Shown one piece after another: positions 28,274 through 30,937 of a DNA stretch of 64,000 bases. Source of the stretch: Marinobacter sp. GTDB taxonomy: Bacteria > Pseudomonadota > Gammaproteobacteria > Pseudomonadales > Oleiphilaceae. The notes under the pieces were generated by a model. That model was not told the DNA's origin, did not search any database, and worked only from the letters and a program-made list of their open reading frames with translations. The position numbers and the translations under genes were made by a program. Positions within the stretch are counted from its first letter, which is position 1. Each line of letters begins with the position of its first letter. Where the stretch lies: assembly GCA_030457765.1 (NCBI GenBank), contig JAKDUK010000007.1, positions 1-64,000 of the forward strand, in the 5' to 3' direction.

Positions 28274-29047
28274 TCAGCCGCGATCCTCGCTTTCATCACG
28301 CACGCAATCAAAATCGTCCTCATCCAGCACAGGCAAGTCACCATTCTGATAGTCGCTGTTCACCTTCCGCAACGCCTGACACATGTTTTCAAGTCGCTCA
28401 TCTACCGCATGCATGTGATCGAGCAATGCACGTACGGACCGTGCAACCGGGTCTGGCATTTCTTCGGTCACGCCATAAGCATCAAACCCCATACGCTCTT
28501 CCATCAGCTTACGGCGGGCATCGTCTTCCGTTTTTTGCTTAACAATTATTCGCCCAGGGATACCTACTACGGTAGCGCCCGCGGGGACCGACTTGGTAAC
28601 CACGGAGTTAGAGCCAACCTTAGCACCCTCTCCTACTTCAAACGGCCCCAATATCTTTGCACCGGCACCTACCACAACGCCGTCGCCAATTGTGGGGTGG
28701 CGTTTTCCTTTATGCCAGCTGGTTCCTCCAAGGGTCACGCCTTGGTACAGGGTAACGTCGTCACCTATAACCGTTGTTTCACCAACAACCACTCCCATGC
28801 CGTGATCAATAAAAAACCGCCGACCAATAGTGGCTCCCGGGTGTATTTCTATGCCCGTAAACCATCGTGCAAGCGTAGAAATAGTGCGGGCGAGCCACTT
28901 AAGCCCTGCATGCCATAGCCAATGCGAGAACCGGTGAATAAGCAGGGCATGAAGCCCCGGGTAATTGGTCAGAACCTCAAAGGTATTCCTGGCCGCAGGA
29001 TCTCGATGAAAAACGCTTTTAATATCCTCTCGCAAATGCCTAAACAT
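28274..29047 (-). CDS. cysE: serine O-acetyltransferase CysE
   Basis: A 257-residue enzyme making O-acetylserine, the carbon skeleton for cysteine. An N-terminal helical domain ([20 protein letters not shown]) is followed by a left-handed beta-helix of hexapeptide repeats ([48 protein letters not shown]). The catalytic Asp-His pair is in FIDHGMG. The acidic tail (LDEDDFDC) is typical of the Pseudomonas-type protein. It lies between trmJ (overlapping by 8 nt) and iscR (77 bp), linking cysteine supply to the desulfurase downstream. Confidence 0.96.
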
Positions 29048-29900
29048 GGCCTTTTTCCTGTTCGGTGTCGGTGCCGGTGTCAGTCGGTTTTGTCTTCGCC
29101 GATGTCCCAGAAGATTTCTGCACAGCGCTCAACACGCCGCGAAGAATATTGATCTCCATCTGATCAAGTTTTGCCCGCTGAAACAGGCGGCGCAAACGCG
29201 ACATTAGCTGCCTGGGGTTATCCCGACGATGAAAATCCACATCGTGCAGGGTTTGCTCAAGATGCCCAAAAAAACCTTCAACATCCCCCACTTTGGCCGG
29301 AGGTACATCCCAACCCGCATCACCTGGTGTAGTCATAGGCGTTAGATAGGGTCTACCCTCGCCATCTTCAAGGTTGCGTAAATACAACATGCGTAACTCG
29401 TAACACATAATTTGAACCGCCATGGCCAGATTCAGCGAGCTATAATCAGGGTTCGTCGGAACATGAATATGATAATGGCAACGGTGGAGCTCATCATTAC
29501 TCAGGCCGTGGTTTTCCCGACCAAAAACCAATGCCACGGGGCCGGTCTGGCTATTTTCCGCAGCAATCGCGGCCGCCTCAGGAGGGGGTAAAACTGGCCA
29601 GGGTATCTTGCGACCCCGGGCGCTTGTGCCCAGCACCATGACGCACTCTTCCAGCGCCTCATCAAGCGTTGATACAACCTGGGCCCTATCGAGTATATCT
29701 GAGGCGCCAGCTGCACGAGCATAAGAGGCTTCGTCTGGGAAAGAATTCGGATTAACCAGCCACAAATTCGCGAGCTTCATGTTTTTCATGGCTCGGGCAA
29801 CGGCTCCAATGTTGCCTGAATGGGACGTTTCAACTAGAACAATCCGGATTTTATCGTGAAACGCGTCCGGCCCTTCCAGTGGCGGAGATGGCTTATGCAT
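29040..29900 (-). CDS. trmJ: tRNA (cytidine/uridine-2'-O-)-methyltransferase TrmJ
   Basis: A 286-residue SPOUT methyltransferase that 2'-O-methylates position 32 of tRNAs. The N-terminal domain starts [23 protein letters not shown]. The knotted SAM site is marked by [16 protein letters not shown] and [16 protein letters not shown] helical C-terminal extension containing [21 protein letters not shown] is typical of the long TrmJ form. I start at ATG 29900 ([10 protein letters not shown]); the frame is open about 38 codons further, and the ribosome-binding site is weak, so the start is moderately certain. It overlaps cysE and diverges from suhB. Confidence 0.93.
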
Positions 29901-30084
29901 TGGCGGCAGGCCCAAGGTTATAAATTTAAGGGCGCTAATGATATCAGAAAACCGCCTCTTTCTGCGCCCCCGAAAACCCGCGGTATGGTGTTGTGCGTGC
30001 TTTTCCTGAGTCAAAAAACATACAACAGGGGGTGATCTTTGCTATCATGCCCGCCCTTAACACACCCGGATAACGATCACACAG

Positions 30085-30885
30085 ATGCAACCAGCTATTA
30101 AAATGGCCCTACGCGTCGCGCGTCAGGGGTCGGATTACCTGAAAGCCCACTTCGAGCGCCAGGAACCCATCGGAAAAGACGACGAAGAACGTCGTCTCCA
30201 GTTGGACCGGGTCGAGCAATCCATTTATGACAATTTTGCCGAGCAGCTCGAAAAATCTTACAAAGACCATAGCATCGCACCGCTAAACGAGGCAGATGCC
30301 GGGACCAGCGAAAGAAGCTGGCATATTTTCCCGGTCATGGGGCGCGAAAACTTTCTCAGAGGTATTCCTGAGTTTGCCCTGGCTTTGGCGCAAAAGAAGA
30401 ATAATCGCACTGAAAACCTTCTTTTGATAAACCCGGTTACCGGTGAAGAATATTCCGCTAGCCGTGGTCGTGGTGCTGCACTGAACAGCCGCAGGGTAAG
30501 GACATCAGACATCAAACACGCGGATAAAGCGGCTTTCGCAACCAACCTGCTAGATCAGGCACGCAAAAGCGATAATCCGCTTCTCTGGGGTGAAATGGCT
30601 GCAGTATTGGCACAGAACTCGTCCATGTTCCGCTCATCTGGCTGCGTAGTATTGGATATTGCCCGAGTATCGGCAGGCCTGATGGACGCCGCGGTGGTTT
30701 TTCGCCCAGAACCAGCCGACCTTGAACTTGGCACAACTCTGGCGATGGAATCTGGCGCCTTAACTGCTGATTTCTCAGGCAACCCCTCTACAGATAAAGC
30801 CCGCCAACTGGTGGTTGCTAACCCGAAGCTGTTCCGGGAAGTTCTGAAAATCCTGCACCCGTTTCGTGGCCGCATACCTGGCTAA
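30085..30885 (+). CDS. suhB: SuhB homologue with lost inositol-monophosphatase active site
   Basis: A 266-residue IMPase-fold protein, same length, position and overall pattern as Pseudomonas SuhB (MQPAIKMALRVARQ, ASRGRGAALN, LDIARVSAGLMDA, VVANPKLF). The metal site is gone. The family motif WVIDPLDGTTNF reads WHIFPVMGRENF (79-90), so both aspartates are replaced (F82, M85). The glutamate pair of the TEES/GEE motif is replaced around residues 65-70 (APLNEAD). Only the C-terminal aspartate (D212) remains, without its tryptophan partner. It should not hydrolyse inositol phosphates. E. coli SuhB also serves in rRNA antitermination without its catalysis, and that role is the likely reason it is retained. 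It diverges from trmJ. Confidence 0.9.
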   Translation: MQPAIKMALRVARQGSDYLKAHFERQEPIGKDDEERRLQLDRVEQSIYDNFAEQLEKSYKDHSIAPLNEADAGTSERSWHIFPVMGRENFLRGIPEFALALAQKKNNRTENLLLINPVTGEEYSASRGRGAALNSRRVRTSDIKHADKAAFATNLLDQARKSDNPLLWGEMAAVLAQNSSMFRSSGCVVLDIARVSAGLMDAAVVFRPEPADLELGTTLAMESGALTADFSGNPSTDKARQLVVANPKLFREVLKILHPFRGRIPG

Positions 30886-30902: not shown

Positions 30903-30937
30903 AAAAAAACCGCCAACTGAAAAGTGGCGGTTTTTTT
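30903..30937. terminator. bidirectional terminator between suhB and secF
   Basis: AAAAAAACCGCCA (30903-30915) pairs with TGGCGGTTTTTTT (30925-30937). A T7 tract follows in either direction, so it serves both convergent genes. Confidence 0.92.

Follow-up and report, generated by a model that had tools for sequence, protein, structure and literature searches.

SuhB has long been an odd protein: E. coli seems to have no need of its phosphatase activity, yet needs the protein for ribosome making. The suhB gene of a Marinobacter sp. genome, lying in the window (the whole stretch of 64,000 nucleotides analysed here), raises the question of what work is left for such a protein when its catalytic centre is gone.

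The open reading frame is suhB by position, length and profile. The predicted protein scored 62.7 bits against Pfam Inositol_P (PF00459, cut-off 27), and its best NCBIfam model was SuhB (NF008027), which spanned residues 1-257 with 109 bits, a full-length match far below the equivalog cut-off of 332 bits. The same model matched all 41 members of alignment A1, composed of 41 of the 81 distinct sequences, with the lowest best E-value. The closest solved structures were chains named 'Nus factor SuhB' (9j90 and 8wdq), and identity with E. coli SuhB was about 26%. Through profile scan, trmJ (PF00588), IscR (PF02082) and SecF were recognized as neighbours: suhB is divergent from trmJ and convergent with secF, and past trmJ there are a cysE-like gene, iscR and then iscS, the last assigned by position. 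In E. coli a divergent trmJ-suhB pair likewise adjoins iscR and iscS. Since genomic place and sequence both agree, we regard the frame as orthologous to suhB. The divergent upstream trmJ was also found at 53 of 54 loci with degenerate SuhB and 42 of 51 loci with intact SuhB in the order-wide sample described below.

Two other features of the locus were observed. The cysE-like gene between trmJ and iscR, encoding a hexapeptide transferase (28274-29047), has no counterpart at that place in E. coli. Between the convergent suhB and secF, a hairpin was seen by eye at 30903-30937, with an A tract before it and a T tract after it; the pattern fits a two-way terminator, as expected there. The host genome (G000) is a Marinobacter-like draft, 86% complete.

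Residues are numbered after E. coli SuhB, from the alignment of the window protein to it (Table 1). Among the metal ligands E67, D84, D87 and D212, only D212 is left. The substitutions were E67 to A65, D84 to F82, D87 to M85 and T89 to R87, and the active site was further changed by K34 to E, D38 to L, D44 to E, R184 to S, E205 to V and W211 to A. The partner of E67 shifts between alignments, and no glutamate fits. The protein lacks most of the residues that bind metal or phosphate and should therefore have no IMPase activity; judging from sequence, the window SuhB is almost certainly without catalysis. The original prediction had described a protein with the length, position and fold pattern of SuhB and an intact frame, which had lost both aspartates of the DPLDGT motif and the upstream glutamate motif and kept D212 alone. 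All of this agrees with the alignment, the profiles (PF00459 and NF008027 best), the divergent trmJ as in E. coli, and the open frame of 266 aa with its ATG start.

Table 1. Features of the suhB locus, in positions of the window
Feature	Position	Strand	Basis
suhB, catalytically degenerate SuhB	30085..30885	+	open ATG-to-stop, 266 aa
trmJ (SpoU-type methylase), divergent neighbour backing orthology	29040..30014	-	PF00588
Codon A65, where metal ligand E67 would stand; adjoins 2-residue gap in EE-G motif	30277..30279	+	alignment
Codons F82-P-V-M85, for E. coli D84-P-L-D87 (DPLDGT motif)	30328..30339	+	alignment
Codons R137 and R139 (E. coli R139, R141), SuhB-specific arginines	30493..30501	+	invariant in 55 aligned degenerate SuhB
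Codon S184, at the site of E. coli R184	30634..30636	+	alignment
Codon D212, sole remaining metal ligand	30718..30720	+	alignment
Codons R251 to L254 (E. coli K251/L254), NusA-AR2 binding hot spot of PMC6614801	30835..30846	+	

The loss was common to the whole family holding the window's genome (f1). Among 136 distinct proteins of this family, 50 of which came from named, nearly all Marinobacter, records, E67 and D84 were kept in none, D87 in 3 and D212 in 97. One ligand was kept in 98 proteins, none in 37 and two in a single protein. Chance, sequencing error or a single bad genome is ruled out by the loss of E67 and D84 in 136/136.

A match was found in 57 of 58 near genomes (the own genome included), in all 121 family genomes, in 153 of 155 order genomes and in 102 of 104 class genomes. 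One family genome (G093, 68% complete) gave a weak match only (1e-10), and SuhB is probably missing from its assembly. A total of 86 best-match regions (20 + 60 + 6) came from families of the order other than f1; after five were dropped, 51 intact and 30 degenerate SuhB remained. The dropped ones were L132, which is cut by a contig end and has an intact motif, and L133, L245, L246 and L247, which are generic intact IMPases of family f15. Together with 24 representatives of f1 the degenerate set comprised 54 proteins, or 55 with the window. In this order-wide sample, degenerate SuhB occurred in eight families (f1, f6, f7, f26, f36, f37, f38 and f44) and intact SuhB in 35, of which 22 were represented by a single protein; no family was mixed. 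A quirk of the genus only is thus ruled out. Among the intact families, the SuhB of f20 resembles by eye the chain of the first 'Nus factor SuhB' structure, and on this resemblance f20 looks like the family of Pseudomonas. The four f15 genomes behind the dropped IMPases (G050, G187, G214 and G261) are small, and SuhB itself may be absent from them; G050 retains NusA AR repeats.

No loss was found in other orders of the class, as DP[LI]DGT and WD were present in 40/40 fetched best matches. These were hand-picked from the 102 matching genomes, many for low similarity, with orthology by sequence match instead of place; two of them (L411 and L413) are perhaps IMPases of another kind, and two (L403 and L404) are cut, with E67 unreadable in L403.

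Within the 54 degenerate proteins, no ligand was kept in 17, one in 32, two in 5 and more in none. Of 62 positions conserved in at least 95% of the 51 intact SuhB, 17 are conserved in no more than 30% of the degenerate proteins, including K34, D38, D44, E67, E68, D84, D87, T89, R184, E205 and W211. We take these 17 to be mostly active-site positions of this enzyme family. Arginine replaces E67 in 20/54 degenerate proteins, namely 18 of f26, f36, f37 (one row), f38 and f44, and two of f1; the arginine may be left over from the change that first inactivated the protein.

The window's genome contains a second PF00459 protein with an intact motif (G000:C10:27688-28506, named IMPase-2 here), 29% identical to the window protein over the matched part. 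Calling IMPase-2 at 232 bits or more to this protein, we found it in 30 of 35 genomes with degenerate SuhB and in none of 37 with intact SuhB, where the best matches did not exceed 154 bits and fell at the SuhB genes. Copies fetched from seven families other than f1 had the motif DPIDGTVN in 14/14 cases, and W211 and D212 were kept in 15/15 IMPase-2 proteins. Since the degenerate families possibly form a single clade, the 30 co-occurrences are not independent events. No IMPase-2 match was obtained in five of the 35 degenerate genomes (G159, G170, G181, G249 and G277), which we count against the main reading given below; their family relatives do carry IMPase-2, suggesting later loss. One of the five, G181 of family f7, is 100% complete and gave one PF00459 match in total, presumably its degenerate SuhB, and may be without any IMPase or CysQ-type enzyme of the PF00459 family. 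In the best reading, the enzyme job of SuhB was passed on or was dispensable.

Whether catalysis was lost once or several times was followed on trees of rpoB and SuhB. Searches recovered rpoB from 62 of 72 genomes, and the tree was built from 51 rows: E. coli and 50 of these genomes, 29 with degenerate and 21 with intact SuhB and none from the window's genus. On this tree the degenerate label needs two changes, with f44 parted from the rest, and among 200 bootstrap trees one change suffices in 0%. A history in which the eight families lost catalysis independently, each once IMPase-2 had relieved SuhB, would agree with this tree and with replacement residues that vary by family. Such losses are compatible with the mechanism proposed below, and we give them a real but clearly minor chance. 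A single rpoB clade of all degenerate rows was not rejected (p-AU 0.135), and when f44 is left out the remaining 26 degenerate rows come together, though with weak support (56/8). In the SuhB gene tree, made by a quick method from SuhB only and without active-site columns, the 55 degenerate rows lie on one side with SH-aLRT 99; long-branch attraction is possible in it, as the degenerate rows have the longer branches (root to tip 3.39 vs 1.78 for intact). The replacement of E67 by arginine, common to f26, f36, f38, f44 and one f37 row, also speaks for common descent. A single loss is favoured over several, without proof; the species tree does not settle it.

While the pocket was lost, other parts of the protein were kept. 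In total 19 of the 62 conserved positions stay at 80% or more in the degenerate set. Compared with 15 IMPase-2 proteins, the 62 positions split into 44 of generic IMPase, 11 of SuhB only and 7 between; mean retention was 0.65 for the SuhB-only and 0.52 for the generic positions, a modest gap that we count against a role as Nus factor. Retention is selective at the level of single residues, and R139, R141 and position 251 are the telling ones. Both arginines were kept in 55/55 degenerate proteins, window included, in 136/136 f1 proteins, and in 50 and 49 of 51 intact SuhB, against 2 and 1 of 15 IMPase-2. A basic residue, K or R, stands at position 251 in 55/55 degenerate, 48/51 intact and 1/15 IMPase-2 proteins. 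K251 and L254 of E. coli SuhB form the contact to NusA-AR2 (PMC6614801), and the window protein has R251, basic though not K, and L254, so the residues of this contact are present.

Two residues count against the Nus-factor role. Position 254 is L in 25 and V or I in 23 of the 55 degenerate proteins, and R184 is absent from 55/55, the window having S184. Wang et al. reportedly found in 2007 that E. coli SuhB R184I lost RNA polymerase sensitivity and complementation. The loss of R184 speaks against an unchanged E. coli-like mode, and the contact to RNA polymerase or within the dimer was probably rebuilt. According to PMC6614801, SuhB variants without RNA polymerase binding did not complement.

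E. coli SuhB binds rRNA signal RNA and NusA-AR2 and recruits NusB-NusE, and it aids rRNA synthesis and maturation with no need of the phosphatase (PMC6614801, PMC4807359). We consider it likely that the protein of the window is a true SuhB orthologue turned pseudoenzyme, working only as a transcription (Nus) factor. By analogy with the E. coli literature we infer the same job minus the chemistry, because both the NusA contact position and the partner domain of NusA are kept. Degenerate SuhB would bind rRNA leader or spacer RNA and NusA, would help to load NusB-NusE at boxA and, like its E. coli counterpart, would support the transcription and maturation of rRNA.

The partners of this proposed role were searched in the genomes. 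The C-terminal AR repeats of NusA (TIGR01954) numbered two in the window's genome and at least two in 27/27 genomes searched. In AR2 the window's genome shares 64% identity with E. coli, and identity of AR2 to E. coli ranged 0.42-0.64 in degenerate and 0.48-0.59 in intact lineages, with three of the 27 NusA rows (L198, L200 and L223) set aside as misread. The exact boxA string was found in 10/15 genomes, with 28 matches against 3 for the reversed control; in 7 of 10 inspected f1 loci, 4 of these from the same genus, it lay between the genes for 16S and 23S rRNA. The other three inspected loci, one in each of three g29 genomes, were without rRNA, and the exact string was absent in 5/15 genomes (the window's own draft, G067, G075, G085 and G041). 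Both observations are counted against the Nus-factor role; the latter genomes may have a variant boxA or a gap in the assembly.

The old pocket might instead have taken a new catalytic or ligand-binding job unrelated to Nus factors. H80, F82, C187 and R194 near the pocket are fixed in the 41 sequences of A1 and could form a new site. However, position 84 varies by family (F, S, N, D, E, Q, C, L and others) and so does position 87 (L, H, D, S, I, Q, V and others); no new site is common across the clade, whereas R139, R141 and basic 251 are. We hold this explanation improbable.

Slightly less credible still is a degenerate SuhB that mainly regulates IMPase-2, for example as pseudoenzyme partner in a mixed dimer. 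It would fit the co-occurrence of both genes in most degenerate genomes and the dimerisation of E. coli SuhB (PMC6614801). Against it, five genomes have degenerate SuhB and no IMPase-2 match, the kept SuhB-specific positions include the NusA contact, and the two genes are on different contigs in the draft of the window's genome.

The gene has been held by selection. Over 653 pairs with dS 0.1-1.2 (Nei-Gojobori, 81 sequences including the window), the dN/dS of suhB had a median of 0.103, quartiles of 0.055-0.138 and a highest value of 0.323. In the same 51 pairs, a small sample limited by 23 readable trmJ sequences, the medians were 0.052 for suhB, 0.052 for trmJ, 0.053 for secF, 0.046 for iscR and 0.021 for cysE. 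Thus suhB is under strong purifying selection, level with trmJ and secF. The frame was broken in one of 82 same-genus genomes, own included: in G155 (L175, G155:C1:1559726-1560519) suhB is split between two frames into pieces that overlap, beside matches to trmJ and secF, and the break could be either real or a read error. The original prediction had held the protein to be retained, and this is borne out by dN/dS across relatives, among which neither frequent disruption nor relaxed selection was found. Its further proposal, a non-enzymatic SuhB kept for another job, gains support from the selection, the basic residue 251 and a NusA with two AR repeats. The scale of eight families, the IMPase-2 that follows the loss and the absence of R184 were not part of that prediction.

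Purifying selection did not hold the rate at that of intact SuhB. With active-site columns excluded, the SuhB/rpoB distance ratio had a median of 3.83 in degenerate (396 pairs) vs 1.37 in intact lineages (163 pairs), that is, degenerate SuhB evolved about 2.8 times faster relative to rpoB, which is counted against the Nus-factor role. The rpoB gene itself had no speed-up (root to tip 1.52 vs 1.53). This faster evolution and the broken copy in G155 are what a drifting, decaying leftover, dispensable beside IMPase-2, would leave, but with dN/dS of about 0.05-0.10 equal to trmJ and secF, a single broken copy in the genus, and retention in eight families beside trmJ, decay is very improbable.

The history of this pseudoenzyme may be read as follows. 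One ancient event, or very few, would lie in the ancestry of the eight families; IMPase-2 would have been present or acquired in that ancestry, leaving SuhB free to lose catalysis, and after the loss the dead pocket would have drifted separately in each family. A fuller form of this proposal, which we hold no more probable than its contrary, is a single ancient split in which the second phosphatase took over the chemistry or made it needless. SuhB would then have become a dedicated Nus factor, without a metal site or control by Mg, Li or substrate, and the kept residues (R139, R141, basic 251 and an N-terminal M-x-P) against the lost ones (R184 and the pocket) would mark the transcription surface.

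That a gene dropped its chemistry and yet stayed under selection points to the transcription role as the one kept by natural selection, and the eight families offer a map, drawn by nature, of residues with a possible part in that role. Regulation of SuhB through its metal site in rRNA transcription also becomes testable, for these families must manage without it. Labels of 'inositol monophosphatase' on degenerate suhB genes are probably wrong. Among titles and abstract starts of the open-licence literature, outside which most subscription papers lie, we found no catalytically dead SuhB or SuhB pseudoenzyme, which is weak evidence for novelty. One apparent paper on SuhB and Marinobacter (PMC4503921) was rejected, because the letters were a pronunciation guide.

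Compared with known systems, the window protein is like SuhB of E. coli and Pseudomonas in its length, fold family, basic 251, R139 and R141, and in its place adjoining trmJ as in E. coli. It is unlike them in lacking E67, D84, D87, T89, R184, E205 and W211, so that catalysis is not expected. With IMPase-2 of the same genomes it shares the PF00459 fold family, while IMPase-2 has the intact active-site motif and nearly all of its 15 copies miss R139/R141 and basic 251. In general it is like other pseudoenzymes, in which an enzyme fold serves a non-catalytic role (PMC5106787, PMC10211241). A further parallel is with the IMPase-defective SuhB mutants of E. coli, in which catalysis is also gone and which are without the growth defect of the suhB deletion (PMC4807359); unlike in those laboratory mutants, the pocket was here lost naturally, in eight families.
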